Notes: generated by a model not told the origin, from the letters alone. Shown: positions 12,241 to 38,280, numbered from the stretch's first letter. The stretch is 64,000 nucleotides of DNA from an uncultured Planctomycetota bacterium (GCA_903901045.1 CAIUPP010000153.1:1-64000), one strand, 5' to 3'. A program made the numbers and translations.

Positions 12241-12242
12241 GA

Positions 12243-15200: not shown

Positions 15201-15323
15201 CGCCCGGCGGCGGCGCTCAATAATCCGCTCTGTCGGCTGTCCGCTTGCATCGAGTTCCCAGTATCGAGCCGGATACTTATAGGGAGAGTTCAGGATGGGG
15301 TGCTCAAAGAATGGGTTGGACAT
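12243..15323 (-). CDS. res: Type III-like restriction endonuclease, DEAD/DEAH helicase with C-terminal PD-(D/E)xK nuclease (Res)
   Basis: A 1026-residue protein, first gene of the minus-strand operon. The start at 15323 (MSNPFFEHPILNSPY) has GAGGAG 9 nt upstream; longer in-frame starts at 15353 and GTG 15386 have poorer sites. LKLATGAGKTTVMAM (ATGAGKTT at 177-184) is Walker A and LVFNDEAHHCYREK near 310 is the DEAH box. VSVSMLTEGWDARTVTHVLG and EQVIGRALRRQ are motifs V and VI. Close to the C-terminus YLPDFIVLVDD, then VVEIKGYRRED, give the PD...ExK nuclease centre. It cleaves DNA together with the downstream Mod. The same transcript continues into SIR2, HerA and UvrD genes, which is not the usual two-gene Type III arrangement. 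Confidence 0.88.
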   Translation of the reverse strand: MSNPFFEHPILNSPYKYPARYWELDASGQPTERIIERRRRAEFITPIPKPKKRKGPESQQAIVFDEGKGLSTQEQQYDPTSENINEVRRHVDRWRMLPNPSDWQVTPETARLLQHWRHHKFSDIRPFFCQVEAAETVIWLTEVAPRSGKAGKDLLEHLARANQAANPELMRLALKLATGAGKTTVMAMLIAWQTINAVRRPGSKHFTRGFLVVTPGITIKERLRVLQPNDPDSYYADRELVPSDMLDDVNRAKIVITNYHAFKRRERIELSAGGRSLLKGRTGEELNTTETEGQMLQRVMPDLMGMKTILVFNDEAHHCYREKAGAADSNDEGLKGDEKKEAEKNKEAARLWISGLEAVNRKLGLARVIDLSATPFFLSGSGYVEGTLFPWTMSDFSLMDAIECGIVKLPRVPVAENIPGDEMPVYRDLWKNIRKDMPKKGRNKGGELDPLKLPTRLQTALEALYGHYEKTFQLWQDKGIKVPPCFIIVCQNTAISKLVYDFISGFHRQNEDGTSTLENGRLALFRNFDEHGNPLPRPNTILIDSEQLEAGDVLDDNFRGMAADEIERFRREIIERTGDARSAENITDQELLREVMNTVGKHGQLGGSIRCVVSVSMLTEGWDARTVTHVLGIRAFGTQLLCEQVIGRALRRQSYDLNEEGLFNVEYADVFGIPFDFTAKPVIAPPQPPRETVQVKAIRPERDALEIRFPRVEGYRVELPEERLTASFNDESIFELTPDLVGPSITRNSGIIGEGVDLNLEHLGDMRPSTLLFHVTQRLLYTKWRDPGEEPKLHLFGQLKRITKQWLDTCLVCKGGTYPAQLMYQELADMACNRITAGITRALEGKRPIKALLDPYNPAGSSAHVRFNTSRTDRWETSSKSCHVNWVVLDSDWEAEFCRVAESHHKVRAYVKNHNLGLEVPYRYGSETRKYLPDFIVLVDDGHGPDDLLHLVVEIKGYRREDAKEKKSTMDTYWVPGVNNLKEYGRWAFAEFTDVYQMETDLKAKIETEFNKMIATATTQPATEGK

Positions 15324-16095
15324 CTGAACCTGCTCCTCTGTCAGCATGGCCATGCGTCCCGCCGGCACGTTGGGATGATATCCCACTGCAAGCCCACGCT
15401 TGCCCGACTTGGTCTTCCGACATGCGTTTCACACGCGGTCTTCACTGACCGGGCATCCTAGCCGTTCCTGGCGCAGGTTGTCAATGGCCGATGGCGAAGC
15501 GTGGCAATACTTAATTTCGTGAGGGAAACCTGTCATCATAAGGAGGACTTTCCTGCGACCGATTCCCAGCTTAATTTCGGGCCGGTTTGAGGGTAATATA
15601 AGATGAACTCGACGAATTCATTGCCCCTTTGCAGGGGCATTTCCGCCGTGCCCCACACCTTAATATGGGGGTGACAATCGGGTACTATACCTTGAGTGGG
15701 CAAATAGCTGTCAGGAACCTACCCCGGCGCTTCGACCGAAGAGTTACCTGATGGCAGCTATCTTAGCCCTGCTTCATTTCGCCCCCCGCGCCGGTTATCA
15801 TATCGTAGATGGGCGGCATAGCCATCCACCTGTCTCAGAAGCCCTCAACAGCCCCCCTGAAATCCTCCGTACCCCCGTACTGAAAAGCCGACGTTCCGGG
15901 ACGAAATGGCACCCATTTTGGACGAAATTGCGCCTCAGCACCCCGACTTTTCTGCCCATTCCCAGGCACTTCCGCGACGGTCATCCAGCGCCAAGCCCCC
16001 ATCTAAATTGCGTCCGGTGAAGCGGTTACAATAAGTAACGGAGCCCGATTTACTATGCAGCAGGGCCTTTCCGGCCTGCGCATCAGGCACCGTTT
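15324..16095. other. Intergenic region upstream of the res operon
   Basis: No gene that I can support. It must contain the promoter for the minus-strand res-mod-SIR2-HerA-UvrD operon and the 3' end region of the exported-protein gene at 16096. It is visibly less GC-rich than its neighbours around 15500-15720. A short ORF at 15751-16020 has no RBS and no recognisable motif. Confidence 0.4.
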
Positions 16096-19340: not shown

Positions 19341-19781
19341 ATGCAGGTCGAGACAGGACTCAATCCGAATTGCTCGGAGGCCGTATTCCGTTTCTACACG
19401 GAGGATCCGAAGGTCGCGCACAAGATTCTCCAGGCCTTTGCCGACGAAGTGGCGGGGGCCAATCGTCGTCCGGCCAAGACCGTGCCCGCATTCCGGAAGA
19501 TGGAGGAGATCGAGAAGGTCTCCTTCAGCGCCTGCGCCGGGATGGGCGAGCCGGTGACCAAATGCATCTGGGAACCGAAGCGAAAGGCGTTCGTGTTGTG
19601 CATCGGCAACAACGACATTGCCCCCGATGGCAAAGGGTGCAATACGGTTCGCGGACTCGGCGTCCGCGTGGATGAGGCGGAGACGTGCAAAGACCTGTTG
19701 ACTTACGCCCGCGACTGCACCTGCGGGAGCGTTTTCTTCGACGAGCCGGCTGAGGCGGCCACGGAAGGAGGTGGTACCTGA
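19341..19781 (+). CDS. Small Cys-containing protein, first of two paralogues, unknown function
   Basis: A 146-residue protein, first gene of the ubiquitin-like operon. It begins MQVETGLNPNCSEAVFRFY. The next gene begins MQITIGLQPNHSEYMRLVA, so the two share an N-terminal module and are probably tandem paralogues. It has eight or so Cys, including CAGMGEPVTKC and CTCG near the end, and finishes TEGGGT. The stop overlaps the next start by one base (TGATG), which indicates coupled translation. I do not recognise the family. Its position before a radical SAM gene makes a substrate or partner role for that enzyme possible, but this is speculation. Confidence 0.6.
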   Translation: MQVETGLNPNCSEAVFRFYTEDPKVAHKILQAFADEVAGANRRPAKTVPAFRKMEEIEKVSFSACAGMGEPVTKCIWEPKRKAFVLCIGNNDIAPDGKGCNTVRGLGVRVDEAETCKDLLTYARDCTCGSVFFDEPAEAATEGGGT

Positions 19782-20338
19782 TGCAAATCACCATCGGCCT
19801 CCAGCCAAATCATTCGGAATACATGCGGCTCGTTGCCACGCTCGCGGACAAGAAGTCGGCGAAGACCGTGTACGTGGACTTCGTCCGGCATCTGGGGAAG
19901 CTATTCGCCCGCGCGGACAACTTCAACTGCTCCGGGTTCGGGAGAAACTTCAAGACGAGGAAGGAATTCCATACCTGGAAGAAGAAGGAATGGGACCCGG
20001 TCGCAGACGAGCGTTGCACGCTATCGATTCAGAAGCGCGACGGTCGCATCTGCGTCTCCGGCAACTATGGGCTCATATTGGACGACTGGTCTCGCGAAGA
20101 GACGGCGATAGCGCTGGACGGAGCGGTCATAGCGCTGCGGGTCTACACGGCCGGCTACGGCCTGGATCACGTGGAAGAGTGGCTCGTTGGGCGGGGGGCA
20201 TCCGTTCAAACTTCAGTGGAGGGCGAGGAGTATGGATTCAGCTCGTTTGACGACGCTCTTGAGCAAGTCGAAACTCCGGTTGGGAAGAGAGGGGCTGGTG
20301 GCGTACGAGCCAGGGACGGCGACCACCCTCCGGCTTGA
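19781..20338 (+). CDS. Small protein, second of two paralogues, unknown function
   Basis: A 185-residue protein with the N-terminal motif MQITIGLQPNHSE shared with the preceding gene. It is coupled to that gene by a one-base stop/start overlap. The middle part, ERCTLSIQKRDGRICVSGNYG, looks beta-rich. The 3' end overlaps the radical SAM gene by about 107 bp. The last ~35 residues (from about SFDDALEQ) may therefore be real C-terminus or overrun, or the radical SAM start may lie further in. It is part of the 19341-27001 operon. Function unknown. Confidence 0.55.
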   Translation: MQITIGLQPNHSEYMRLVATLADKKSAKTVYVDFVRHLGKLFARADNFNCSGFGRNFKTRKEFHTWKKKEWDPVADERCTLSIQKRDGRICVSGNYGLILDDWSREETAIALDGAVIALRVYTAGYGLDHVEEWLVGRGASVQTSVEGEEYGFSSFDDALEQVETPVGKRGAGGVRARDGDHPPA

Positions 20339-21173
20339 CCGGGAAGAGACGGTCCGGCTGCTGCAACGCGAAGTGCCATTCGAAAGTCTGGACGATCCAT
20401 GCGAGGTAGTCCACCTGGAGATCAGCAACCGTTGCAACATATCCTGCCCGTATTGCTATGTGGGGGCCAAGGCGGGCAGGGAGCTGTCCACCGGTCAGTG
20501 GAAACGCATCCTCGACGACCTGGTTAGCTATGGGGTCTTTCAGGTTACATTCGGCGGCGGAGAGCCGACGTTGCGGGACGACCTGAAGGAACTCGCGCTC
20601 CACGCCAGGCGGCGCGGTCTGAACCTCTGCATGACGACCAACGGGAAGATTCTGCCGCAGATCGGGCCGGACACGCTCTGCCTCTTCAATCAGGTCAACG
20701 TCTCCTATCACGGGGACGATTTGATGGTATGGAAAGCACTGGACCATTTGGAGCGGTGCAATGTGGCACGCGGCGTCAACTTCGTTGCTCTGCCCCCGTT
20801 CATGCCGGAGCTGTCCCGCATGGCGCTGGTGTCGGAGATGTTCGATGCGGAGCTTCTCATGCTCACCGCTAAGGGGGTGCCCGACGCCGTTCCGGCGGCG
20901 CGCGTGATGGCCGAGGCGCGGAAGTTTCACGAACAGGGCGTCCGTGTGGCCGTGGATGGGCTGACCTGTTCGGGGGAGCTGCCGGACTTCTGCATGCAGA
21001 AACGGCGGTTCTGCGACGTGGACTCCCTGGGGAACGTCATGCCGTGCTCGTTTGTCCGAACGCCGATAGGCAATCTGCTCGATAAGCCATTTGCCGAGAT
21101 ATGGAGATCTCGCGGTGAGCAGGTGGCATGTCCCTTCGCACAGGAGGACAACGCTCATGCAATACGAAAATGA
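20232..21173 (+). CDS. Radical SAM enzyme with SPASM/Twitch-like C-terminal cysteines
   Basis: A 313-residue protein; ATG 20232 has GGAGGG at 20218-20223, 8 nt upstream. HLEISNRCNISCPYCYVGA carries the CxxxCxxC cluster (C68, C72, C75) that binds the 4Fe-4S/SAM centre, and TFGGGEPTLRDDL is the following GGE SAM motif. Near the end CMQKRRFCDVDSLGNVMPC plus IGNLLDKPFAEIW is the usual tail that binds an auxiliary cluster in peptide-modifying enzymes of the SPASM/Twitch type. Such enzymes cross-link or otherwise alter peptide side chains. Here the gene lies inside an operon with Ubl, E1, E2 and JAB genes, and right after two small paralogues. It may modify one of those proteins; the substrate is not shown by the sequence. 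Confidence 0.82.
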   Translation: MDSARLTTLLSKSKLRLGREGLVAYEPGTATTLRLDREETVRLLQREVPFESLDDPCEVVHLEISNRCNISCPYCYVGAKAGRELSTGQWKRILDDLVSYGVFQVTFGGGEPTLRDDLKELALHARRRGLNLCMTTNGKILPQIGPDTLCLFNQVNVSYHGDDLMVWKALDHLERCNVARGVNFVALPPFMPELSRMALVSEMFDAELLMLTAKGVPDAVPAARVMAEARKFHEQGVRVAVDGLTCSGELPDFCMQKRRFCDVDSLGNVMPCSFVRTPIGNLLDKPFAEIWRSRGEQVACPFAQEDNAHAIRK

Positions 21174-21185
21174 AAGGAGATTCTG

Positions 21186-21695
21186 GTGAGCCGCAACTGG
21201 CCAAAGCACGACTACACGGTCAGGGACATCAAGACCTTCCGAGGCATGGAAGGCGAAGGGTTCAACGCCACGCTCTGCCGCGACGGACGGAAGGTCGCTT
21301 CCGTGATTGACGACGCCACGGGGGGCGATGTGCATTTCCAGTGGGCTGACGCCCGCTCGCGCGGCGCGGAGGAAAAGCGTCTGCTGGAGTTCGTGAAGAC
21401 GTTGCCCAGGGAACGGTGGGAGGACACAGAGTATGACGTGACGTCCGACGTATTCCTTGCCGCTCTCGTGGACGAGGCCCAGACCGAGAAACGGCTCAGG
21501 CGCCTTTTCAGGAATGAGACGCTATTCCGCCTCAAGGGCGACCGGACGGACGACGACAAATGGCGCATACTCAAGGTGCCATTCTCTCTAAGCGTCAAGG
21601 CGCAGCTTGTGAAGACCTACGGCGACAGTCTCACCCATGTCCTCAACGAGGACTATCCCCACCTGAACCCCCGGAGCAGGAAGCAATCTCCTTGA
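21186..21695 (+). CDS. Conserved hypothetical protein, 169 residues
   Basis: GTG start at 21186 with AAAGGAG at 21172-21178 overlapping the end of the radical SAM gene. The N-terminus, DIKTFRGMEGEGFNATLCRDGRKVASVIDDATGG, looks like a small beta-sheet module that recurs in accessory-region proteins. The remainder is charged and probably helical. It has no catalytic motif I can name. Tight spacing shows it belongs to the operon. Confidence 0.6.
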   Translation: MSRNWPKHDYTVRDIKTFRGMEGEGFNATLCRDGRKVASVIDDATGGDVHFQWADARSRGAEEKRLLEFVKTLPRERWEDTEYDVTSDVFLAALVDEAQTEKRLRRLFRNETLFRLKGDRTDDDKWRILKVPFSLSVKAQLVKTYGDSLTHVLNEDYPHLNPRSRKQSP

Positions 21696-21769
21696 CCGCC
21701 TCGGTCAGGACCAACCATCCGGCGGTAAGTCAGCAGGAAGTTGACTGGACTCTCTGGAAAGGAGGTGCC

Positions 21770-22399
21770 ATGCACGCCATCTACACATTCCTGATGCAAC
21801 TGCCGGCCAATCGCTGCACCAAGGAGTTGAAAGAGGAGGCGTCCTCTCAGTTCGAGACGCAGTACGCACCGCTCTGCGACGAAAACAACTGGTATCAGGA
21901 GACGGCGCTGGTTACCAGGACCGGGCGCGTCATCCAGCTCTGCGACAACGGCGACTGGCGCGGCCGTGACTCCTGGTACGGCGTGATCAGGAAGGTCGAG
22001 CCGAAGAAGCGCTGGGACTGGGCATGGAAGTTTGCCCTGGAGTGCGTTTCGACCGACGCCGAGCTGTTCAACATTCCCTCCATTGGGATTCTGCCCGACC
22101 CGGAAGGGGGGAGCAGGAAGATCGAGCAGATGTCGTTCGACGAGCTTCTGAACGCGATCCGGGAATGGATCCCGAAAACACTGTCGAGGGCCTATTCGGA
22201 GATCAAGCCCAGGAAGAAGGGAGAGGATACGTTCCTGACCGATCATGCGCGGCAGAAACGCTCGGCGGTCTTCGAGATCCTGAACGAATGTTCGCGGCCG
22301 CCGTTCGCCTGGCCGCGCAGCCCCTACGAGTACCGGGCATTCGCGCTATGTGAACCGGAGAAGGGAAACGCGGTGATGTTCGTGGATATCCATACGTAG
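21770..22399 (+). CDS. Hypothetical protein, 209 residues
   Basis: ATG 21770 is preceded by AAAGGAGGT (21758-21766), a near-perfect ribosome site; the longer in-frame ORF from 21560 lies over the previous gene and is unlikely. The protein has a segment RTGRVIQLCDNGDWRGRDSWYGVIRKV followed by a Trp-rich WDWAWKFALECV, then a charged helical C-terminal half. It is not recognised. It lies in the ubiquitin-like operon between the 169-residue protein and a zinc-ribbon protein. Confidence 0.6.
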   Translation: MHAIYTFLMQLPANRCTKELKEEASSQFETQYAPLCDENNWYQETALVTRTGRVIQLCDNGDWRGRDSWYGVIRKVEPKKRWDWAWKFALECVSTDAELFNIPSIGILPDPEGGSRKIEQMSFDELLNAIREWIPKTLSRAYSEIKPRKKGEDTFLTDHARQKRSAVFEILNECSRPPFAWPRSPYEYRAFALCEPEKGNAVMFVDIHT

Positions 22400-22440
22400 G
22401 CGGCAGGTCCGTTTCACATTCATTTGTTGAGGGTAACCCC

Positions 22441-22899
22441 ATGGCCCACGATGCCGAACAGAGCAATGCCGAGCGGGCCGTGCGCGCGGAGCAAGCCGTG
22501 CGGCATTACTCCCGCACGCCCGGTTACAGCGGGAAGGCGGATTACGAGGCCGACATCACCGACCTGCTTACCGACCTTCGGCATTTCTGTGTTGCCATCG
22601 GGTTGAAATTCGACGAAATAGCCCGGAGGTCCAAGCGCCATTATGAAGCGGAGAGCAAGGGCCCCAACAGGCGGAGAATGCGTAACGAAACCGGCAAACT
22701 CGCGTGTCCGAGCTGCGGCGCGCGTCTCGATTATCACCCGGACCAGGACGGATCGTGCGACTGGGAGTGCCCCCATTGTGGGTGGCGTCGGCACGATCCC
22801 GGTCCCGCTCCAAAGCATCAAGAAGGAGAAAGAACACATGGCGGCACTGACGCTCGGCGAAAAGGGCCACTGGCGCGACCGTATCGCGAAGCGGATTGA
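22441..22899 (+). CDS. Small zinc-ribbon protein
   Basis: A 152-residue protein. Residues 88-115 contain CPSCGARLDYH then WECPHCGWRR, two CxxC knuckles of a zinc ribbon. The N-terminal part is helical (HDAEQSNAERAVRAEQAVRHY, then DITDLLTDLRHFC). The 3' end overlaps the next gene by 62 nt, so the last ~20 residues may not be conserved. Zinc-ribbon proteins recur near prokaryotic ubiquitin-like operons; here it could be an adaptor, which is inference. Confidence 0.6.
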   Translation: MAHDAEQSNAERAVRAEQAVRHYSRTPGYSGKADYEADITDLLTDLRHFCVAIGLKFDEIARRSKRHYEAESKGPNRRRMRNETGKLACPSCGARLDYHPDQDGSCDWECPHCGWRRHDPGPAPKHQEGERTHGGTDARRKGPLARPYREAD

Positions 22900-23392
22900 C
22901 CAGCGCATCGAAACGGTCGTGGCCAAGTCCGACCCCACATTTCTACAGCGCGTGGAGAGAGAGGCCCAGGAACGCGCGTATAGGAGTCTCGGCATTGACG
23001 CGCAGCAGGGCGAACTGGAGGCGGTCCAGAAGCAGAAGGAGGAACTCGACCAGCGTGAGAGGCGGCTCTCCGCCGAACAGAGCGCCATCGTTAACGGGAC
23101 CTCCATCGAAAAGGCGATAGACGCGGGCGACTATTACCACAGCGACAGCGTCGAAAACGCCGTAAACGCCAGGGCCAAGGCGTTGGAGTCTGAGATCCTG
23201 GCTGAGTCGGAGCTTGGTTGCCGAATCCTCTCGCTGCGCGAGGAAAAGGACAACCTTCTGGACACCGTCTGGTTGGCCACGTCCAGCAGTCAGATCAAGG
23301 AGCTTTGGGAGCAGGTCAACGCGCTGCTCGAAATCAAACCGACGGCGCTGGAAGAGAAGGCGCTGAAGATTGCGCCGGTGGAAGAGGAGTGA
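22838..23392 (+). CDS. Coiled-coil protein, 184 residues, unknown function
   Basis: ATG 22838 with AAGGAGA 8 nt upstream; the in-frame ORF from 22643 lies over the zinc-ribbon gene and is discarded. The sequence is rich in Glu, Gln, Lys and Arg with heptad-like spacing, for example GELEAVQKQKEELDQRERRL, and later ESEILAESELGCRILSLREE. It is cytoplasmic and has no recognisable motif. It lies in the ubiquitin-like operon and could be a scaffold. Confidence 0.6.
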   Translation: MAALTLGEKGHWRDRIAKRIDQRIETVVAKSDPTFLQRVEREAQERAYRSLGIDAQQGELEAVQKQKEELDQRERRLSAEQSAIVNGTSIEKAIDAGDYYHSDSVENAVNARAKALESEILAESELGCRILSLREEKDNLLDTVWLATSSSQIKELWEQVNALLEIKPTALEEKALKIAPVEEE

Positions 23393-23427
23393 CGCGTTCC
23401 ACCGCTGGACGAGGAAAGGAGGTTTCT

Positions 23428-23712
23428 GTGGTCGCACCCCTGACTCAACCCGGACCGCGGCCTGCGGAGATAAGGCTGTTGCCGCAGGAGCGCGAGGGAG
23501 AATGCCGGTTCGAAGGACAGTTTGTGACTACGAGCCATGCGATGGAGCGGTTCGGACAGGCGATCATCCTGGCCGCGCTGCTCGTGTTGCGCATGCGGCT
23601 GCAGGACGGGGCTTCGCTCGACTACCTTCAGGTATTTGAGATCGATGGGGCGCGCTTGTGGATCATTGACGACGGCGCCGTCACCACCGCACTGCTACCA
23701 TCGGATTACTGA
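23428..23712 (+). CDS. Small hypothetical protein, 94 residues
   Basis: GTG start at 23428 with AAAGGAGG (23415-23422) 5 nt upstream; the longer frame from 23218 overlaps the coiled-coil gene. The protein is VAPLTQPGPRPAEIRLLPQ at the start and LQVFEIDGARLWIIDDGAV near the end, alpha/beta and compact. It is followed by a strong terminator-like hairpin at 23745. Not recognised. Confidence 0.55.
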   Translation: MVAPLTQPGPRPAEIRLLPQEREGECRFEGQFVTTSHAMERFGQAIILAALLVLRMRLQDGASLDYLQVFEIDGARLWIIDDGAVTTALLPSDY

Positions 23713-23744
23713 ACAGTCGAACCGTTGTGAATGTCGTGGTTCTG

Positions 23745-23776
23745 CCACGGTCCGCAGGGTGCGGCCGTGGTTTTTT
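23745..23776 (+). terminator. Intrinsic-terminator hairpin just before the ubiquitin-like gene
   Basis: CCACGG-t-CCGCA (23745-23756), a GGG loop, then TGCGGCCGTGG (23760-23770), an 11-bp stem with one bulged T, followed by six T (23771-23776). It meets all criteria of a rho-independent terminator yet lies inside a same-strand gene series, 27 nt before the Ubl start. It may separate or attenuate transcription between the upstream genes and Ubl-E2-JAB-E1. Confidence 0.8.
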
Positions 23777-23802
23777 CGTTTCTGCTCGGAAAGGAGCATC
23801 GT

Positions 23803-24069
23803 ATGAGAGTCGAAATCTTTCGTTTGACGGGCGAGCCGGTGAGCATCGAGGTGAAGGAGAACGGCACGGTGCGCGACGTGTTCAGCGCCGACGGGTCGGG
23901 CAAGGTGCTCGGGCACGACGGCACGCTGATGGAGGCGGCTGAGGAGCAGTACGGCTCGATCAGCCAACTCGGCACCCTGCGGGTCAACGGCGCCTCGGCG
24001 ACGTTGGACACCTCCGTCCGGGCCGGCGCGACCATCCTCATCATCCCCAAGGTCGAGGGCGGCCGCTGA
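23803..24069 (+). CDS. Ubiquitin-like beta-grasp protein with C-terminal Gly-Gly-Arg
   Basis: An 88-residue protein; ATG 23803 is preceded by AAGGAG. MRVEIFRLTGEPVSIEVKEN gives the first beta hairpin, TVRDVFSADG the helix start, and LRVNGASATLDTSVRAGATI then LIIPKVEGGR the last strands. This is the layout of ubiquitin/MoaD/ThiS beta-grasp proteins. It ends EGGR: the di-glycine is followed by one Arg, so exposure of Gly-Gly would need removal of one residue. The downstream JAB protease is the obvious processing enzyme, and the E1-like enzyme would adenylate the exposed glycine. It is the modifier of the operon. It is flanked by hairpins on both sides, which may allow its dosage to differ from that of the enzymes. 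Confidence 0.82.
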   Translation: MRVEIFRLTGEPVSIEVKENGTVRDVFSADGSGKVLGHDGTLMEAAEEQYGSISQLGTLRVNGASATLDTSVRAGATILIIPKVEGGR

Positions 24070-24084
24070 ATCGCGGGCACGAAC

Positions 24085-24116
24085 CGGGTCGGTCCCGCCG
24101 TTGCGGGGCCGGCCCG
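24085..24116 (+). terminator. Hairpin (attenuator-like) between Ubl and E2-like genes
   Basis: CGGGTCGGTCCCGC (24085-24098), loop CGTT, GCGGGGCCGGCCCG (24103-24116): a 14-bp stem with two G-U pairs. The following ATTCTCTTCT is only a partial T-tract, so it is better read as an attenuator or mRNA-stabilising hairpin than as a full terminator. Confidence 0.55.
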
Positions 24117-24139
24117 ATTCTCTTCTGGAGGCAAACCCA

Positions 24140-25555
24140 ATGCAGATTCCCGATGTCATCATCGAGACGTGGCCCAACATGGTCCTGCCGCAAAGTGAGG
24201 TCAAGGCGGTATTGCAGTACCTGGCGCATAAGGCGAAGAAGCCTGTCACATTCCGGTGGTACGCGGAGGATGAAGGCTATTCCGACCAGTCCGTCAGCGT
24301 CAGAGTCTTCGTCAATGACGACCTCGCCGCCACGTACAACCCCAGTCACGTCATGATCAATGGACAGTCCTACGCCGTGGCTTCCGTGCAGCGCGGCATG
24401 GCCGCGGCCCTGGTCCGGACGGAGTGGACGAAGATCGCGGATGAGGAGGGTCAACTCATCGGCTGCGTCGACCACAATCGCATCATCCTCCCGTTGGAGA
24501 TCACTGTTTGTGACAACGACGCCGCACGGGCGATTCTGGCCTATGTGGTGGAGAAAGCCGTTGACCTCCTCGACTTTGACGTAGCCGACATGGTCAGGAA
24601 GCGCGAGGAGGACTTTGCCCGGCATTTCGGCGAGGCGTTCCGGAAGAGCGTCAAGACCCGCCTGGAATCGAGACAGGAGGAATTCGACACCCGCAAGCGC
24701 GAGGCGGAGCAGGCGTACTACTCCGTGCTCGAATTCGAGCGCGACCGGCCGGTTCTCGAAGAGGAACTCGCCTTCCTCACGGGTCTCGCGGAGAAATCCT
24801 GCGCCAGGATGGCGCGCCGGCAAGTTCAGGCGTTGCTTCAGGTTCAGAGCAGCGGCCAGTACACGCATATTGCCTTCGACGGCGAGGGGGTTCTGCGCGC
24901 AACCACCGCGCCGGTCACCATTGAGCACGAAGGTTATGAAATCCCTCTGGGCCGGTACGAGGTGGAGATCCCTGCCACGGGGGACATTCGGATCAAGGCA
25001 TTGGACGACCATCCCAATGCCGACCATCCCCATCCGCATGTCGCCCACGACAATCGTCCCTGCCTCGGCAACATCTCAGGGGACGTCGCCAAGTTGATCG
25101 GGAAGATGCGCTATGCCGAAACCCTCCAACTGCTCCATTCCTTCCTGAGCGCCTACAACCCGGAGAATCCGTACGAGAAGATCGGACATTTTGATCCCCT
25201 GGGGCGGTATGAGGACGAAGAGAGCGACCCCTGTGAGGATTGTGATGACAAGGCCAGTCCGTACTGCATCTTCGGTTGCGAACACAACAATGAATGCTAC
25301 ACCTGCGCGGACTGCTATGACCTCAGAGCGGAATACTGTTTCGAGGAGTGCGAACACAACGCCGACCACGAAAGATTCCACCCGTGCGAGGCATGTGCGC
25401 GCAAAGGGGAGGAGCGTTGTTACCTGGAGTGCCGATACAACAAGGAATGGGAGCTTCAGAACCCCTGCGATGCATGCGAAGAAGAGGAATGCACCCATGA
25501 GGAGTGCCCCTACTTCACGCGCAAAAAGGAGACGGAACATGCACAAGCAACGTGA
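24140..25555 (+). CDS. E2-like (UBC fold) conjugating protein with N-terminal extension and Cys-rich repeat tail
   Basis: A 471-residue protein, start at ATG 24140 with GGAGG upstream. Residues 1-145 are an unrecognised alpha/beta region, and 150-230 a helical, likely coiled-coil linker. Residues ~240-345 look like an E2: IPLGRYEVEIPATG strands, then DHPHPHVAHDNRPCLGNI, where HPHPHV matches the E2 'HPNV' and C308 in PCLG matches the catalytic cysteine. The helical RYAETLQLLHSFLSAYNPENPY follows, as in E2 enzymes. Residues 363-460 carry four ~25-residue repeats of type 'PCxxC...C...C.hN' (DPCEDC, YTCADC, HPCEAC, NPCDAC), probably zinc binding and perhaps treble-clef or RING-like. The stop overlaps the JAB start by 17 nt. 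It should carry the Ubl as a thioester; this is inferred. Confidence 0.75.
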   Translation: MQIPDVIIETWPNMVLPQSEVKAVLQYLAHKAKKPVTFRWYAEDEGYSDQSVSVRVFVNDDLAATYNPSHVMINGQSYAVASVQRGMAAALVRTEWTKIADEEGQLIGCVDHNRIILPLEITVCDNDAARAILAYVVEKAVDLLDFDVADMVRKREEDFARHFGEAFRKSVKTRLESRQEEFDTRKREAEQAYYSVLEFERDRPVLEEELAFLTGLAEKSCARMARRQVQALLQVQSSGQYTHIAFDGEGVLRATTAPVTIEHEGYEIPLGRYEVEIPATGDIRIKALDDHPNADHPHPHVAHDNRPCLGNISGDVAKLIGKMRYAETLQLLHSFLSAYNPENPYEKIGHFDPLGRYEDEESDPCEDCDDKASPYCIFGCEHNNECYTCADCYDLRAEYCFEECEHNADHERFHPCEACARKGEERCYLECRYNKEWELQNPCDACEEEECTHEECPYFTRKKETEHAQAT

Positions 25556-26345
25556 TGAGAAACCCACGCTACTGGACGAGCCGGAGGCGCCGTTCCTCCG
25601 GAATGCCCGGAAGCCAGCATGGCCTTCGGGAGTCTCAGTCTCAAAGTCTCAAACTCTCAAGTGCTTCGTCCCGGAAGATCTCCGGGTTATCCTGGCGAAG
25701 GAGGCCTTTGAGCAGCTCTTTGGGTATGCCTACTCCACAAACCGGGAGATCAGCTGCATGGGCGTTGTCCGGCGTCAAGGCAGCACCTTCACCTTGGAGC
25801 GGTTCCACTTGGTGGGCCAGGAAGGCGGAAGCGCGCATACGGAGATGGATCCCGCCGCCCTGGGTACTCTCATCGAAACACTCCTGGGGGAGGGGAAAGC
25901 CGATGAGGCCAGGGCAATCAAGTGCTGGGCGCACAGCCATCCCGGGATGGGCTGCTTCTGGTCGAAAACCGACGACGACACGTGCCGGCTCTTGGCGACC
26001 GACTTCTTGGTAAGTTTGGTCGTGAGCGACGGCTTCGCCATTCGCGCCAGGGTTGACGTCGGCGGGCCGGTGCCGTTCACCGTGGACGAGGTGCCGGTGA
26101 TCCTACAGGTTTCCCCCGATGAGGAGGCATTGAAACGTTATGGGCAGGAGGTTGCGGAAAAGGTTAAGGAGGCGGTCGGTCTTCCGGTGGGGAAAACGCC
26201 CGGTCCTGAGAACGCCGGCGGTTTGTTTGACGATGATCTCCGGTCGGACTACTACGGCCGGACGGGGTTTCTCGAAGAGGACGAGACCGCCGTGCTGGAT
26301 GCGGCTGTGGACGACAGAGACCCCTTCTGGGAGATGACGCCATGA
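25539..26345 (+). CDS. JAB/JAMM metalloprotease (ubiquitin-like deconjugase or processing protease)
   Basis: A 268-residue protein; ATG 25539 follows AAGGAG with a 7-nt spacer. The JAMM centre is complete: NREISCMGVV supplies E70, and AHSHPGMGCFWSKTDD supplies H132, H134, S142 and D145 in the pattern HxHx7Sx2D. Residues ~150-200 complete the JAB fold (FLVSLVVSDGFAIRARVDV). The C-terminal ~70 residues are acidic and probably disordered. JAB proteins in bacterial ubiquitin-like operons trim the Ubl C-terminus and cut isopeptide-linked conjugates. Here the Ubl ends GGR, so trimming one Arg is the simplest prediction. The stop overlaps the E1-like start by 4 nt (ATGA). Confidence 0.88.
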   Translation: MHKQRDEKPTLLDEPEAPFLRNARKPAWPSGVSVSKSQTLKCFVPEDLRVILAKEAFEQLFGYAYSTNREISCMGVVRRQGSTFTLERFHLVGQEGGSAHTEMDPAALGTLIETLLGEGKADEARAIKCWAHSHPGMGCFWSKTDDDTCRLLATDFLVSLVVSDGFAIRARVDVGGPVPFTVDEVPVILQVSPDEEALKRYGQEVAEKVKEAVGLPVGKTPGPENAGGLFDDDLRSDYYGRTGFLEEDETAVLDAAVDDRDPFWEMTP

Positions 26346-27001
26346 CCGAAACGGCCTCACGTTTTCTCCGGCAGCTGGATATCCTGCCGCCGGAGAAGCT
26401 TTCGTTTCCCATCACCGTCGTCGGCGCCGGGGCGATTGGATCGGCTGCGGTCATCACGCTGACGAAGATGGGCTGCACAAACCTTATGGTCTGGGACGAC
26501 GACGTGCTAACCGAGCACAATGTCCCCAACCAGATGTGCGCCCTGGATGCGGTTGGCTTTCCCAAGGTTGAGGCGCTGGCCACGCTCGTCATCGAACTCA
26601 CCGGCACGTCCATTCAGACGCGGCGCGAACGTTACCGAGGGCAGCGGCTGGACGGAGTCGTCATCGCCGCCACCGACAATATGCAGGCCAGACAGGAGAT
26701 CTGGAAGCGCGCGAAGATGAACCGGTCCGTGCCGCTCCTGATTGACGCCCGGATGGGCGCGGAGTTTGCCCGCATCTACACAATACACCCCTCCAACCTG
26801 GACGAGGTGGACTTCTACGAGTCAAACCTGCATCCCGATGGAGAGGCAGAGCGCCTGCCGTGCTCCGCCCGGGCGATCATCTATTGCCCGACGGTCATTG
26901 GCGGCCTGATTGCCTTGCAGGTCAAGGCGCACGCCTTGGGCCAGCCGCTCAGACGTGAAATCCTCTTTGACCTACCCCGCCTGCAACTCATCACCCAGTG
27001 A
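26342..27001 (+). CDS. ThiF/E1-like adenylating enzyme, compact
   Basis: A 219-residue protein. ITVVGAGAIGSAAVITL (GAGAIG at 28-33) is the nucleotide-binding loop. WDDDVLTEHNVPNQ (51-64) is the E1/ThiF motif that normally reads 'D..E.sNl.RQ', here with Asn in place of the Arg. VIAATDNMQARQ (107-118) is the 'caDn...R' motif. C174 in ERLPCSARA and C182 are the candidates for a thioester cysteine. There is no CxxC zinc pair and no ubiquitin-fold C-terminal domain, so it is smaller than MoeB or eukaryotic E1. It should activate the Ubl at 23803. It is the last gene before a strong terminator. Confidence 0.82.
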   Translation: MTETASRFLRQLDILPPEKLSFPITVVGAGAIGSAAVITLTKMGCTNLMVWDDDVLTEHNVPNQMCALDAVGFPKVEALATLVIELTGTSIQTRRERYRGQRLDGVVIAATDNMQARQEIWKRAKMNRSVPLLIDARMGAEFARIYTIHPSNLDEVDFYESNLHPDGEAERLPCSARAIIYCPTVIGGLIALQVKAHALGQPLRREILFDLPRLQLITQ

Positions 27002-27042: not shown

Positions 27043-27094
27043 GCGCCGGCCGCCATGGTGCCCGTGCATCGTGGTGGCCGGCGCTTTTCTCTTT
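27043..27094 (+). terminator. Intrinsic terminator closing the ubiquitin-like operon
   Basis: GCGCCGGCCGCCA (27043-27055) pairs with TGGTGGCCGGCGC (27072-27084) around a 16-nt loop. TTTTCTCTTTT follows. It begins 42 nt after the stop of the E1-like gene and marks the likely end of the Ubl-E2-JAB-E1 transcript. The stem has one G-T pair. Confidence 0.8.
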
Positions 27095-27192: not shown

Positions 27193-27798
27193 GTGCAAGA
27201 CGAAGTCAAGGCCCGTCTCATTGTGGCGCTGGTGAAATTTGCGGTGGTACTGGGCGTTCTGGCCGGGATCGGCTACTACATTTATCACGCCGTCCGTACG
27301 CCGCCCAAACCCACCACGAAGGAACTAATCGAAGTGATTCGTTCCGAGGAACTGTCGTTTCTGGTGACCGACCGGCTGGTTACCAAAGCTGTGGTCGAGT
27401 CGAAGGAGAACAACCTGTTTCTGGGCGTGCGCGAAGGCTACCTGATTGCTACCGTGCGCATCTACTTTGGCATCGATCTCAAGAGCCTTCCCGAAGATGC
27501 CGTGCAGGTCACCGATGGCATCATCTATATCATGGTGCCGGAGCCCCGCGAATTGGATTTCAGCGTGGACCTGGATTCGGCGCGCTTCCTGTCCAAACGG
27601 TCCGGGCTGGTTGTCCTGCGCGACTTCCTTCAGGACCTGAACTTCCAGCAAGAGCTCGAGCGGCAACTCCACCAGGCCGCCCAGGAGATGCTGCGTAACG
27701 AGAAACTTTTGCCGGGCCGGGAGGAGATCGTCAAGCGGCTGAACGGATGGGCGCCGGCTCTGAGCAGCCGGTGCAACATGAAGGTCATTTTTCGTTAG
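27193..27798 (+). CDS. DUF4230-family membrane-anchored protein
   Basis: A 201-residue protein with GTG start at 27193 and AAGGAG 7 nt upstream. Residues 12-32 (VKFAVVLGVLAGIGYYIYHAV) are a membrane anchor. The domain from TTKELIEVIRSEELSFLVT through GYLIATVRIYFGIDL and DGIIYIMVPEPRELDFSVD fits DUF4230, a family of membrane-tethered proteins of unknown role. It follows the terminator at 27043 and the micropeptide, so it may form its own small unit with the latter. Confidence 0.75.
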   Translation: MQDEVKARLIVALVKFAVVLGVLAGIGYYIYHAVRTPPKPTTKELIEVIRSEELSFLVTDRLVTKAVVESKENNLFLGVREGYLIATVRIYFGIDLKSLPEDAVQVTDGIIYIMVPEPRELDFSVDLDSARFLSKRSGLVVLRDFLQDLNFQQELERQLHQAAQEMLRNEKLLPGREEIVKRLNGWAPALSSRCNMKVIFR

Positions 27799-27823: not shown

Positions 27824-28483
27824 TCACATCGCCCGCCAGACCAGGCCCAGGACCTGCCCGACTTCCTCCACCTGGCCGCGGATCGCCGCGCCATCGTCCA
27901 GTCGGACAAACGCGCCTCGGGGTGTGCGCCGGGCCAGGACAAGTTTCCCGGCTTCCTTTCCCTTTGTGGAATGCCGAAGCACGACGATCTGACGAGACGT
28001 CGGTTTCGCCTTCTGGTCCATCAGGAGCAAATCCCCCCGGCGCAGCGACATTGCCGGCGCGTCGTAAGGAAGCTCCAGCACGTAGGGCAGAGTGGCCTCG
28101 GCCAGCAGCGGCACCGCATGCCCGGCGACCTCCGTACCGTATCCCGTGCGCGCCGGCGACTGAGCCGGGTCGCCCAGGCACGGTTCCGAGAGGGTATGCT
28201 TCAAGGACGGAGGGATTGCGGGCCCGACGAGCGGCTTGGCCATTGTCCCTTCGCCATGAAGCAGCCAACGGGAGTTGACGGCGAACTCGTCGGAGAACCG
28301 CCGCGCAAACAGTTCGGACAGAAGCCTGTGGCCGTTTTTGACGTCACTCAAGTACCCCTGTGGCACCGCAAGGCACTCGGCAATCTCCAACTGGGTCTGT
28401 CCCTTGGCGGTTAGTTCGTTCAACACCTGCACCAGCCGCTCCTGGCGCTGTTTTCGGACCTCTTCCGACGTTGGCTGGGGCAT
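27824..28483 (-). CDS. XRE-type repressor with degenerate S24 (LexA-like) C-terminal domain
   Basis: A 219-residue protein; the start at 28483 has GAGAGG upstream. Residues 29-53 (GQTQLEIAECLAVPQGYLSD) form a helix-turn-helix. The C-terminal half has the S24 layout, with DAPAMSLRRGDLLLMD at 141-156 where active LexA/CI proteins have 'GdSM.P.i..GD'. The nucleophilic Ser is replaced (DAPAM) and I see no catalytic Lys in the LVLARRTPRG strand. It is therefore probably not self-cleaving and may respond to a ligand or partner. It faces the resolvase/recombinase genes across a spacer with a promoter-embedded palindrome that is a good candidate operator. Confidence 0.75.
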   Translation of the reverse strand: MPQPTSEEVRKQRQERLVQVLNELTAKGQTQLEIAECLAVPQGYLSDVKNGHRLLSELFARRFSDEFAVNSRWLLHGEGTMAKPLVGPAIPPSLKHTLSEPCLGDPAQSPARTGYGTEVAGHAVPLLAEATLPYVLELPYDAPAMSLRRGDLLLMDQKAKPTSRQIVVLRHSTKGKEAGKLVLARRTPRGAFVRLDDGAAIRGQVEEVGQVLGLVWRAM

Positions 28484-28527
28484 ATCATGCCTCTCGAAAA
28501 AAAGTTTCCCAAAACCTCGAAATCCTC

Positions 28528-28556
28528 TTGACAATTACCGGGAAGGTAATTACCAT
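28528..28556 (+). promoter_or_regulatory. Promoter with operator palindrome between repressor and recombinase module
   Basis: TTGACA (28528-28533), 17-nt spacer, TACCAT (28551-28556) gives a good sigma-70-type promoter reading toward 28620. The spacer itself is ATTACC-GGGAA-GGTAAT (28534-28550), a perfect 6-bp inverted repeat filling the region between -35 and -10. Binding there would block RNA polymerase. The divergent repressor is the likely ligand. Confidence 0.65.
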
Positions 28557-28619: not shown

Positions 28620-28955
28620 ATGGACGCTAGGAAACGCAGTTGCGTGCCGGTTGGCTATGTTCGTTGCTCGACGCTTCGCCCCGGTCCGTTGGCCGAGCAG
28701 GTCGGCGCCATCGTCGCACTGGCGAGGCGTGGCGTGCCGCTCAAAGCATTGGCCGCCGACTTCAGCAACGGCCGAACGGTTAACCGAGCGGGTCTTCGCG
28801 GTCTGCTCGAAGCGGCCAAGGGTGGCCTTGTCAGCGAAGTCGTCGTGAGTCACCCGTCTCGGTTGGCACGTTCTTACGCCAAGCTGGAGGATCTTCTGCG
28901 GCAGTTCGACGCGCTCGGCGTGCGAGTCACGTTCGCCTCGCAGGTGACCCGGTAA
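28620..28955 (+). CDS. Orphan serine-resolvase catalytic domain
   Basis: A 111-residue protein with AAGAGGAGGAGGG before the ATG. VPVGYVRCSTLRPGPLAEQ has the catalytic-type Ser (S17) of resolvase/invertase N-terminal domains. VVVSHPSRLARSYAKLEDLL is the 'v...d..D.RLaR' helix that carries the active-site arginines. There is no C-terminal DNA-binding domain. It may be a regulatory or helper subunit for the large recombinase 500 bp downstream, or a degenerate copy. Same operon and orientation. Confidence 0.7.
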   Translation: MDARKRSCVPVGYVRCSTLRPGPLAEQVGAIVALARRGVPLKALAADFSNGRTVNRAGLRGLLEAAKGGLVSEVVVSHPSRLARSYAKLEDLLRQFDALGVRVTFASQVTR

Positions 28956-28967
28956 TAGGTGGATACC

Positions 28968-29429
28968 ATGGTCACCAACAACTCTACAGCATCGGAAGTT
29001 CTGAACACCGTTAAGCGTGAAGCGCAGGCCGCCGCGGTGGCGGCCTGCCGCTTCCTTGACCGGATCGGGTTTCCCAAAAGTCCTGTGCCTCTCGGATTCG
29101 CGCTGAGTCTTGCCGCGCGCGTTCGCTTCGTTCAATGGGACGCGATGGGATGGGGCCACCTCGTTCCGCCGGAGTGCAAACCGACTGAGGAGCATTTGGC
29201 GCGATTCATGCAGGATGCGGCTGATGGTCATCCGGTTGAAGCGGCATGGTCGAATACGCCGTCGGCGTTCCGAGAGTACTTCACCGCGTTGGTTTATCGC
29301 ACGGCATGGTCGGGCAGAACAGAACTCCGCGCGCCGGTGGCCGTCAACCGTGTCCGGCGTTTCAGCCCGGTGGAGTTGGACACGCTGGCGGCCTTTCTGT
29401 GGAAGTACCGGCGCGCCGGTCGCAACTGA
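28968..29429 (+). CDS. Hypothetical protein in recombinase operon, 153 residues
   Basis: ATG 28968 has AGGTGG at 28957-28962; an in-frame GTG at 28959 is possible. The sequence is mixed helical with several Trp (VRFVQWDAMGWGHLVPPECK, YRTAWSGRTEL). It has no motif I can name. It sits between the small resolvase domain and the large serine recombinase and may be a directionality or accessory factor, purely by position. Confidence 0.5.
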   Translation: MVTNNSTASEVLNTVKREAQAAAVAACRFLDRIGFPKSPVPLGFALSLAARVRFVQWDAMGWGHLVPPECKPTEEHLARFMQDAADGHPVEAAWSNTPSAFREYFTALVYRTAWSGRTELRAPVAVNRVRRFSPVELDTLAAFLWKYRRAGRN

Positions 29430-29460
29430 ACGAAAGAATGAACATGAAAGGAGAGAGGTC

Positions 29461-31533
29461 ATGGCTGCGCGCAAGAAGCACCGGGGGTTGATATACATCC
29501 GGCGCAGCACCTCGCGCCAGGAATTGAGTTTGCCCGCCCAACTGGAGTGGGCCCTGAAAGAAGCGGCGAAGCTTGGCGTTGTCGTCGACGCCTCATTGGC
29601 CGACTTGCAATTCATGCAGGAGAAAGGCCTCGTGTCCTACAAGTCCATCCGTCTCGACGACGGGCGAACTGGCGCCGACATGGAGCGGCCCGGGTTCATG
29701 GCCTTGCAGAAGGATGCCGTCGCCGACAAATCCATCAGCCACATCTTCATCCACAAGCGCGACCGTCTGGCCCGCCCGCAAGAGGTGACGGACATGATTC
29801 AGATCGAAAAGAAATTGCGCTATGCGGGTATCACGATCTGGCTTTCCGGTAAAGTCGGCGAACCGCTCGACGTCGGTCAGGCCAACCCGGTCGTCGATAT
29901 GGAACTGTACTTCGAGTATTACGAGAGTGGAGAGTACCTGCGCAAGCTGTCGGAACGCGTGGTCACCGCGCAGAAGACTCTGGCTGAGGGCGGCTTTCGC
30001 ACCGGCGGGAAGCCGCCGTACGGTTTTGGCCGGATTCTTGTTGACTCCAGTGGCAAGACACTCCAAGACCTTCCGCCCGGCCGACGCGTGCGCCAGCCTG
30101 GTTGCCACGTGCGTATCGTGGTGACCGACCCGGAGAAGATCAAGAACTGGGTCATGATCCTGGATCTCCGTAAGCAGGGATGGGGGATCAAGCGCATCGC
30201 CGCGCATTTGAACAAGCTCGGCATCCCCAGTCCGGACGTCGGCTGCGTCCGCAAAGACCACGGCATCGCCCACTATGTCAGCGGAAGGTGGTCGCCGGGA
30301 ACGGTGGCGGAACTGTGTCGCAATTCCGCGATCATCAGCGTCCAGCAGTTTGGCCGCCGCCTCGAAGGTGAGCACCGCCGCCACGGCGCCGACGGGTTCC
30401 GGCTCTTACAGGAGTCCGATCGCAACGCCCTCGGCAAGGCCAAGATGGTTAACAACGACCCCGCACGCTACATCGTCCGCCCGATCGGCATCAAGGAACA
30501 GTACGATCCTTTGGAGTGGGAGAGACTCCAGGCCGAGATTCACCGGCGTGGGACCCTGCAGCGTGGCATCCCGCGCACGAGGAATCCTGCTCGTTTCCCT
30601 CTTGCCTGCCGGGTGATTGACCTCACTGACAACTGCGGATCCGTCATGTACGGCCGAATCCATGGCAAACGGCTTATCTATGTTTGCGGACAATACAACC
30701 GCACCGCCGGGGCTGAATGCGCCGCCAACGCGGTCGATGCCGAGGCTCTCCTGCGCTTCAGCCTAGAGACTATCCGGCAAGTCATTGGACTGAATGGCGA
30801 AGATCGGCAGGAACTCAAACGCCTCTTGATGGAACAGGCTCAAAAAGAGCAGGTCGAGCCGGACCGTTCCCTTGAAATCAAACGTGACTTCCTGCAACGC
30901 GACATCACTCAAACGAAGGAGAACCTCGCCGTCGCCCAACGGCGGATGACCATTGAAAAGGATGACGCACGGTACCAAGCGTTGGCGGAGGAATTTGACC
31001 GCATCCGAAAGTACCTCCTTGACCAGGAGCAGCAGCTACACACACTGGAACAGAAGGCGCCAACGTTGGTGGTGGACTATGACCCGGATAAGGAAGTAGC
31101 CGCCGCCATGTCCCTTCTCGGAGAGGTCGACCGCATCACCGGCGACAGGGACGCTCGGGCCGAGATCAACGCGCTGTTGACGCGCTTGGGGATTCGAATC
31201 GGCTTGAACTTCGCCGCGGCGATCAAGGGCAAAGAGCGCGTGGTGCGAAAACTGGTCAACGGAATTATGGTATTTGGAAACAACGATCTTCCGGTGCCGA
31301 TTCATGGCAAGGACCGTGTCGAGCCCGCCGACGGGAATGGCCATGACGGCAAGAGTGCTAACCACGGTGAAAATGGAAAGGGAGGTGAGCAGGGAAAGAA
31401 TGCTGTCTCTGAAAACGCCGCAGCGGGAACCGGCTCGGAGCCGATTCCCGCCGTATCTGGCGTTCACTTCTGTGAACGTCGCCCACGAGAGGGCATTTCG
31501 TCCACAAAGGATGGTCGGGGCGGCGGGACTTGA
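29461..31533 (+). CDS. Large serine recombinase (integrase)
   Basis: A 690-residue protein; ATG 29461 follows AAGGAGAGAGGT. RGLIYIRRSTSRQELSLPAQ holds the nucleophilic Ser (S16) of the resolvase domain, and IFIHKRDRLARPQEVTDMI the arginine helix. GGKPPYGFGR starts the recombinase domain, and later regions include a zinc-ribbon-like segment (CRVIDLTDNCG, then VCGQYNRTAGAEC) and a long coiled coil around 450-560. Such enzymes integrate and excise phages and islands. The last ~100 residues are low-complexity (Gly, Glu, Asn). The last codons and stop lie inside a tRNA-Pro 3' fragment (31512-31563), suggesting that the gene end is adjacent to, or was altered at, an att-like junction. Confidence 0.88.
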   Translation: MAARKKHRGLIYIRRSTSRQELSLPAQLEWALKEAAKLGVVVDASLADLQFMQEKGLVSYKSIRLDDGRTGADMERPGFMALQKDAVADKSISHIFIHKRDRLARPQEVTDMIQIEKKLRYAGITIWLSGKVGEPLDVGQANPVVDMELYFEYYESGEYLRKLSERVVTAQKTLAEGGFRTGGKPPYGFGRILVDSSGKTLQDLPPGRRVRQPGCHVRIVVTDPEKIKNWVMILDLRKQGWGIKRIAAHLNKLGIPSPDVGCVRKDHGIAHYVSGRWSPGTVAELCRNSAIISVQQFGRRLEGEHRRHGADGFRLLQESDRNALGKAKMVNNDPARYIVRPIGIKEQYDPLEWERLQAEIHRRGTLQRGIPRTRNPARFPLACRVIDLTDNCGSVMYGRIHGKRLIYVCGQYNRTAGAECAANAVDAEALLRFSLETIRQVIGLNGEDRQELKRLLMEQAQKEQVEPDRSLEIKRDFLQRDITQTKENLAVAQRRMTIEKDDARYQALAEEFDRIRKYLLDQEQQLHTLEQKAPTLVVDYDPDKEVAAAMSLLGEVDRITGDRDARAEINALLTRLGIRIGLNFAAAIKGKERVVRKLVNGIMVFGNNDLPVPIHGKDRVEPADGNGHDGKSANHGENGKGGEQGKNAVSENAAAGTGSEPIPAVSGVHFCERRPREGISSTKDGRGGGT

Positions 31534-31991: not shown

Positions 31992-33044
31992 ATGATGACG
32001 TTCCGCGGAACTCGCCTCCAGAACCTGCGCCTTCCGCTGGGAACGGTGTGGCTTCTTGAAACGCTGGCGGAATCCAAGGGACGACAGGCGCTCTTCGAGA
32101 AACAGTCCCCCCAGATTCTAAAGGCCCTGCGGGAGATGGCTCTCGTCGAAAGCGCGGAATCCTCGAACCGCATTGAGGGCGTCACTGTCGAACCTGCTCG
32201 ATTGCGCCCACTTGTGCTCGGCAACACGCGCCCGCGCGACCGGTCGGAAGAGGAACTTGTGGGATATCGCAGGGCGCTGAACTGGATGCACACGCAGCAT
32301 GAAAAGATACCGGTGACGCCGGAGACCTGCTTGCGGCTTCACGCACTGGCTCAGGGCGGAACAAGCGGGGACGCGGGCCGGTGGAAGGAAAGACCGAATG
32401 ACATTATCCAGTTCCATGCGGACGGCCGGCATGTGGTTCGCTTCCGTCCAGTTCTTCCAGATCAAGTCCCCGCCGCAATGGACGAATTGTGCCTGGGGTA
32501 TAGGCACGCCATTGACCAACTTCGCGTTACCCCGCTTGTGGCGACGGCCGCCCTCATTCTGGACTTCCTCTGCATCCACCCCTTCCGCGACGGAAACGGG
32601 CGGGTGTCCAGGCTCCTGACCGTGCTGGCGCTCTATCATCACGGACACGACGTCGGTCGTTACATTAGCCACGAGCGAATTGTGGAGCAGACCAAGGAGG
32701 ACTATTACGAGGCCCTCCAGCGCAGTTCCACCGGCTGGCATGAAGGAAAGCACGACATGCTTCTGTGGTTCAGTTATCTGCTTTCAACGTGGCGCATGGC
32801 CTACCGGGAATTCGAGGAGCGCGCCGGGCGGGAACGACCGCCGCGCGGCTCCAAGGCCGACCTGGTTGCCCACGCCCTGGAACACGTTGTGAGTCCGTTC
32901 GGCATCGCCGATATCGAGAGACTCTGCCCCAGCGTCAGCCGGGACATGATTCGCATCGTCATGAACCGATGGCGCGATGAGGGCCGAATCGAGATCGTAG
33001 GGCGAGGTCGCGACGCAAAGTGGCGTCACACAGGCAAAAAGTAG
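31992..33044 (+). CDS. Fic-family protein (AMP transferase type) with C-terminal winged helix
   Basis: A 350-residue protein; GGAGGG 8 nt before ATG 31992. IHPFRDGNGRVSR (HPFRDGNGR at 196-204) is a complete Fic active site with catalytic His. ESSNRIEGV (S58...E62-G63) fits the N-terminal inhibitory alpha-helix motif [S/T]xxxE[G/N], so the protein is self-restrained (class II arrangement). The last ~65 residues (LVAHALEHVVSPFGIADIER, then RWRDEGRIEIVGRG) look like a winged helix. Fic proteins transfer AMP to target proteins, and such stand-alone forms occur in defence and toxin islands. The next gene is a 96-residue protein of unknown role. Confidence 0.85.
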   Translation: MMTFRGTRLQNLRLPLGTVWLLETLAESKGRQALFEKQSPQILKALREMALVESAESSNRIEGVTVEPARLRPLVLGNTRPRDRSEEELVGYRRALNWMHTQHEKIPVTPETCLRLHALAQGGTSGDAGRWKERPNDIIQFHADGRHVVRFRPVLPDQVPAAMDELCLGYRHAIDQLRVTPLVATAALILDFLCIHPFRDGNGRVSRLLTVLALYHHGHDVGRYISHERIVEQTKEDYYEALQRSSTGWHEGKHDMLLWFSYLLSTWRMAYREFEERAGRERPPRGSKADLVAHALEHVVSPFGIADIERLCPSVSRDMIRIVMNRWRDEGRIEIVGRGRDAKWRHTGKK

Positions 33045-38169: not shown

Positions 38170-38176
38170 GACGTGT

Positions 38177-38213
38177 ATTATACTTTGCGTAGATTGCTTG
38201 TCAAGCAATCTAC
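38177..38213 (-). promoter_or_regulatory. Promoter and operator of the first AbiE pair
   Basis: On the minus strand TTGACA (38199-38204), 16-nt spacer, TATAAT (38177-38182). A perfect inverted repeat with 11-nt arms (GTAGATTGCTT / AAGCAATCTAC) around GTC covers 38189-38213 and overlaps the -35. AbiEi proteins are known to bind such inverted repeats. The -10 ends 7 nt before the start codon, so the mRNA would be nearly leaderless. Confidence 0.78.
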
Positions 38214-38280
38214 CAGAAATGGAGTGCATACTGTCAGGGCGGCTGCTCCGACTAATCACTCATGCCGATCAGAGCCTCTG

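Follow-up and report, generated by a model that had tools for sequence, protein, structure and literature searches.

Gene organization

The window, as we call the whole 64,000-nucleotide (nt) stretch of DNA from an uncultured Planctomycetota bacterium, carries a series of 12 genes (g1–g12) at positions 19341–27001, all on the plus strand. From its sequence, the series appears to be a ubiquitin-like (Ubl) conjugation operon with Ubl, E1, E2 and JAB genes and an embedded radical SAM gene, parts of which stay together in diverged copies. A preliminary description had listed a Ubl, an E2-like enzyme, a JAB protease, a compact E1-like enzyme and a radical SAM/SPASM enzyme in one directional series; all are present, as is every other part that it named, and the series also contains three genes that it left out, g4, g5 and g8.

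The first gene, g1 (19341–19781), encodes a small Cys-rich protein of 146 amino acids, the putative radical SAM partner, with copies on contigs C132 and C108 of the same genome and viral homologues near radical SAM genes. The second, g2 (19781–20338; 185 amino acids), is a possible paralogue of g1; the two had been described as paralogous small proteins, and both are there, but their kinship is weak and only suggestive (HHalign probability 36–40%). The radical SAM/SPASM gene g3 (20232–21173; 313 amino acids) is followed by g4 (21186–21695; 169 amino acids), g5 (21770–22399; 209 amino acids) and g6 (22441–22899). The g4 protein and the N-terminal part of g6 are related to the phage protein families phrog_17767 and phrog_3963, respectively, and their neighbours in phages gave no functional clue. 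A zinc ribbon had been assigned to g6, which does have CxxC motifs but scores below the Pfam cut-offs, and we refer to it as zinc-ribbon-like. A coiled-coil-like protein (g7, 22838–23392; 184 amino acids) and a 94-amino-acid protein (g8, 23428–23712) complete the upstream part, and the conjugation core consists of the Ubl (g9, 23803–24069), E2-like (g10, 24140–25555), JAB (g11, 25539–26345) and E1-like (g12, 26342–27001) genes.

Strong stem-loops with T-rich runs lie before the Ubl gene (23745–23776, plus strand), before the E2 gene (24085–24116) and after the E1 gene (27043–27084), the first of them being a weak site in a simple scan. The shape of this pre-Ubl stem-loop is kept in all four copies of the core in this genome, with a sequence that differs between the C60 and C12 copies and those of the window and C65. 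The stem-loops may have a role in setting the Ubl level or in splitting transcripts.

Downstream of the series are genes for a DUF4230 protein (27193–27798, plus strand) and, by eye, an XRE-type repressor-like protein (27824–28534, minus strand), both also found in the C65 copy, and a resolvase fragment with a large serine recombinase (28620–31533, plus strand), which are mobile-element genes. Overall, the window resembles an island of defence and mobile-element genes. Type III restriction-like genes, a Fic protein (Pfam) and AbiE-like genes (by eye) were seen at 9388–15386, 31992–33044 and 36498–38259.

Conjugation core

The Ubl is a single domain of 88 amino acids that ends in VEGGR, in line with the GGR terminus described for it, and it has a weak profile match to the Ubls of its relatives. 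All four copies in this genome retain the GG, which is followed by a variable tail of one or two residues (GGR, GGCR, GGAQ and GGAQ); distant Ubls mostly have EGA at the end, with a short and variable tail or none. The JAB protein has the full JAMM site reported earlier, with HSHPGMGCFWSKTD intact and an upstream E whose surroundings match those in relatives, and the pattern E...HxHx7Sx2D is the same in 29 of 29 sequences. Because the Pfam scores of the two proteins fall just under the cut-offs (ThiS, 20.4 versus 22.5; Prok-JAB, 19.7 versus 25), their identities rest on motifs and relatives. The compact E1-like enzyme passes the ThiF cut-off (54.2 versus 28.1), and its residues G28, G30, D52, N60, K75, D112 and C174 are invariant (n = 14 sequences), so that the adenylation residues are kept.

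The E2-like protein (471 amino acids; HPHV...C308LG) bears out the assignment of C308, which lies within the site HPHVAHDNRPCLG ten residues past H298; H298, P299, H300, C308 and G310 are invariant in an alignment of 42 sequences. The H298-to-C308 spacing is that of the HPN...C motif of eukaryotic E2s such as UbcH5b, and UBE2W also has HPH. An AlphaFold model of residues 225–471 reached a pLDDT above 90 across most of the core, and in a structural search the best 50 rows were all E2s or E2 complexes (Z of 7.3–8.4, values near 8 being rated as modest in the notes of the tool). A Foldseek search of the PDB alone returned nothing at E < 0.001, the best hit being an E2 at E = 0.026, and the Pfam E2 families matched neither the window protein nor any of the 42 family members. 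A full-length model from 7 sequences (mean pLDDT of 47) was set aside. The C-terminal tail is Cys-rich, conserved across the alignment and putatively zinc-binding; it is modelled mostly at a pLDDT below 60, and its profile hits to RING, B-box and FYVE chains were weak.

Copies within the genome

Parts of g1–g12 recur, at 57–98% identity, on five further contigs of the genome. The radical SAM gene is on C153 (the window), C132 and C108, and the E2 gene is on C153, C65, C60 and C12. C132 and C108 carry g1–g4 and the first half of g5; its second half and the genes that follow are on C60 and C12, of which C12 ends inside the E2 gene. In both left halves g5 breaks at codon 94/95, where an inserted element starts; on C132 this element has tandem tyrosine recombinases, and a matching inverted-repeat end precedes the second half of g5 on C60 and C12. 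The element, which we take to resemble RIT-type elements, was located at L019 1–2037, L020 1–290, L009 1–157 and L010 4010–4158 with repeats TTATGTGGAG and CTCCACATAA, at the same g5 insertion place in two copies. Joining the split halves would give four copies, of which three have the radical SAM block and one, that on C65, lacks it. The whole order stands on a single contig in the window only; for the other two copies with the block, a connection between radical SAM and Ubl depends on joining contigs at the split g5.

The C65 copy has Ubl, E2, JAB and E1 but lacks the radical SAM block. Between the window and the copies, dN/dS is mostly 0.05–0.4 (0.13–0.19 for radical SAM) and dS mostly 0.2–2, with a dS of about 1 relative to the other copies of the block; the copies have diverged under purifying selection. 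Given these dN/dS values and the 57–98% identity on other contigs, the recurrence of the series is more than chance. In flanking composition these contigs are more like one another than like two other genomes, which speaks against gross contamination.

Several further features were seen in the copies. In the comparison of C65 with the window (L008 11189–12942 with 23803–25555), the Ubl is 98% identical (dS of 0.19) and the E2 79% identical (dS of 0.82), a contrast that suggests recombination between copies. At the position of g1–g8, upstream of the C65 Ubl, is a gene for a 205-amino-acid protein (L008 10404–11018) that is sigma-factor-like by eye and has no Pfam match. Beside the C108 copy (L020 6893–19460) are genes for a phage-type integrase, an AAA ATPase and two HerA-like ATPases; AAA or HerA-like relatives were also noted by eye in L011, L116 and L120, and such genes are possibly a shared element backbone.

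Distant relatives

A search with an E2 profile found 51 of 397 genomes of one class and 26 of 298 of another, with up to four copies each. The mobile-element E2–JAB–E1 family delimited by profile A5 has an E2 core with HPH...C, a Cys-rich E2 tail and the gene order E2, JAB, E1; the window shares all of these traits, its three genes being adjacent in that order with the Ubl upstream. Among 75 genomes of the window's own class, the E2 profile found this genome only, a sparse occurrence that suits horizontal spread. In 27 of 43 distant loci (a raw proportion) a serine or tyrosine recombinase was found no more than about 20 kb away, and recombinases are also beside the window and C65 copies.

Radical SAM, g1, g2, g4 and g6 were found by profile search in none of 63 distant loci, some on short contigs for which absence is weak. 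The protein encoded directly after E1 in three distant loci is 45–54% identical to g7, relatives of g8 lie near E2 in four, and two genes located upstream of g1 on C132 and C108 (U1 and U4) recur upstream of Ubl in the second class. With U1 and U4 upstream and relatives of g7 and g8 in distant Ubl loci, the radical SAM block appears inside a conserved frame. The preliminary description had named homologous Ubl operons always free of radical SAM as what would refute it, and on this point the outcome is split: the gene was never found in the distant homologues examined, but copies in this genome carry it.

Loci L053–L092 have a DUF1257-like protein, a TOPRIM-like protein (by eye) and a 498-amino-acid AAA ATPase upstream of the Ubl, and L142–L148 have g7-like proteins also in genomes without a listed E2 match. 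Scans of genome contigs gave no match with the E2 alignment and one, at 29%, with the JAB alignment; plasmid searches with E2, g1, g7, E1 and g6 and a phage record search with E2 gave no match.

Radical SAM enzyme and its putative small partner

The assignment of g3 as a radical SAM/SPASM enzyme holds: it has a CxxxCxxC core and a SPASM domain and passes both Pfam cut-offs (60.4 versus 29.5 bits for radical SAM, 29.6 versus 21.5 for SPASM). Its overlap with g2 by 107 nt recurs in all three copies and suggests coupled translation. A search of 294 genomes of the phylum with the radical SAM profile (E = 1e-40) found this genome only; in plasmids, radical SAM matches were only TIGR04347 proteins of Halobaculum (27–28%).

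Scanning viral contigs with g1 identified three contigs in two lineages, two of them with an identical g1 sequence. Each has a radical SAM relative, directly adjacent to g1 in two of the three and separated from it by one small gene in the other. A separate viral scan with radical SAM recovered the same three contigs; the viral radical SAM sequences were part of its alignment, making this a co-occurrence and not a blind discovery. Viral and window proteins are 46–53% identical for radical SAM and 44–50% for g1, in which the motifs NPNCSEAVFRFYT and YARDCTCG are fully or nearly invariant. E1 and E2 profiles had no match in the three viral records, which may be fragments, and searches of phage records with the viral g1 and viral radical SAM gave no match.

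Comparison with known systems

Class 6d operons, which we take to be PRTRC cassettes, are among the closest known systems, and PRTRC membership was rejected, the window E1 being far under the PRTRC_ThiF cut-off (32.9 versus 144.75 bits). Class 6d of Iyer et al. (2006) comprises Ubl–JAB–E1–E2 operons, and such clusters are highly mobile (PMC1779556). The window is like class 6d in having Ubl, JAB, E1 and E2 as separate genes, whereas its E2 has a His before the Cys that class 6d E2s lack (PMC1779556). The radical SAM block is a further difference. The bacterial E2/RING systems of Burroughs et al. (2011) reportedly contain a Cys-rich zinc-type domain along with E2, E1, JAB and Ubl; in the window the Cys-rich tail is instead fused to the E2, as a candidate RING only, and radical SAM and g1 are present.

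BilABCD and CBASS Cap2/Cap3 share E1, E2 and JAB functions with the window, and Bil also has a Ubl. CBASS Cap2/Cap3 has E1 and E2 combined in one protein; in the window E2 and E1 are separate genes, which argues against CBASS membership, and no cGAS-like gene was seen in the series. The Bil Ubl has two Ubl domains (PMC11354881), unlike the one-domain window Ubl, which speaks against Bil membership. The g3 enzyme resembles the maturases SkfB and PqqE, its best sequence matches among solved structures, in its CxxxCxxC core and SPASM domain, but its partner is a protein of 146–194 amino acids and not a short peptide. It falls below the cut-offs of the NCBIfam radical SAM families listed, including viperin (pVip; 47.9 versus 180 bits), for which membership was rejected. 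A Ubl operon with radical SAM was found nowhere in the part of the literature that was searched; within that reach, the earlier impression that this composition had not been described stands.

Discussion

We consider it probable, although well short of certain, that a mobile element has brought together two modules, one being a Ubl-conjugation core and the other a radical SAM enzyme with a small partner on which it acts. In the first module, JAB would trim the Ubl to its GG end, and E1 would adenylate the Ubl and probably load it on C174, from which it would pass to C308 of the E2. The Cys-rich E2 tail may help to release the Ubl onto a target, and JAB may also take it off again. In the second, the radical SAM/SPASM enzyme would modify g1, its dedicated Cys-rich partner, and perhaps also g2 in this genome. 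Because the g1–radical SAM pair occurs in phage-like DNA in which no tagging genes (E1 or E2) were found nearby, the enzyme probably acts on g1, and not on the Ubl; the most likely substrate is g1, perhaps with g2, and subunit or carrier are alternative roles for g1. The viral records are few, come from two lineages and are maybe fragments, which counts against a division into two modules, and the linkage kept at a dS of about 1 could reflect a functional tie between them. The context leads us to guess that the system may help to maintain the element or take part in conflicts with phages or other elements.

The genes g1–g8 might instead be passive mobile-element cargo beside an unrelated Ubl operon, a reading that the phage-like g4 and g6 and the stem-loop with a T-run between g8 and Ubl would suit. 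We judge it unlikely, since relatives of g7 and g8 are located in distant Ubl loci, and diverged copies have the same order and are under purifying selection. The preliminary description had also raised the idea that radical SAM acts on the small proteins, which fits better than Ubl modification. A stronger form of the two-module reading would make the modified g1 and g2 either targets of the Ubl cascade or its effectors. The conserved g1 beside radical SAM, the g2 overlap in three copies and the long co-retention of the block with the Ubl core are consistent with this form, but g1 and g2 are putative conjugation targets only, and any activity of the C65 copy must be independent of them; we regard this form as improbable. 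It is very doubtful that radical SAM alters the Ubl ahead of conjugation, as originally proposed, or modifies E2 or E1 as part of the conjugation mechanism: its block does lie between U1 and U4 and Ubl–E1 in the inferred copies and its linkage to Ubl has been retained, but it is missing from C65 and the 63 distant loci and accompanies g1 in records without an E1 or E2 match.

Under the two-module reading, what radical SAM does becomes a question about a specific partner and no longer about the Ubl, and the pair, being only two genes, is directly testable. The window shares the pair with phage-like elements, and we found no description of it in the literature searched. The comparison also describes a family of bacterial E2–JAB–E1 systems that is common, often accompanied by recombinases and marked by a Cys-rich E2 tail. 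If the modified small protein were a Ubl substrate or effector, two protein-modification chemistries would converge on one target.
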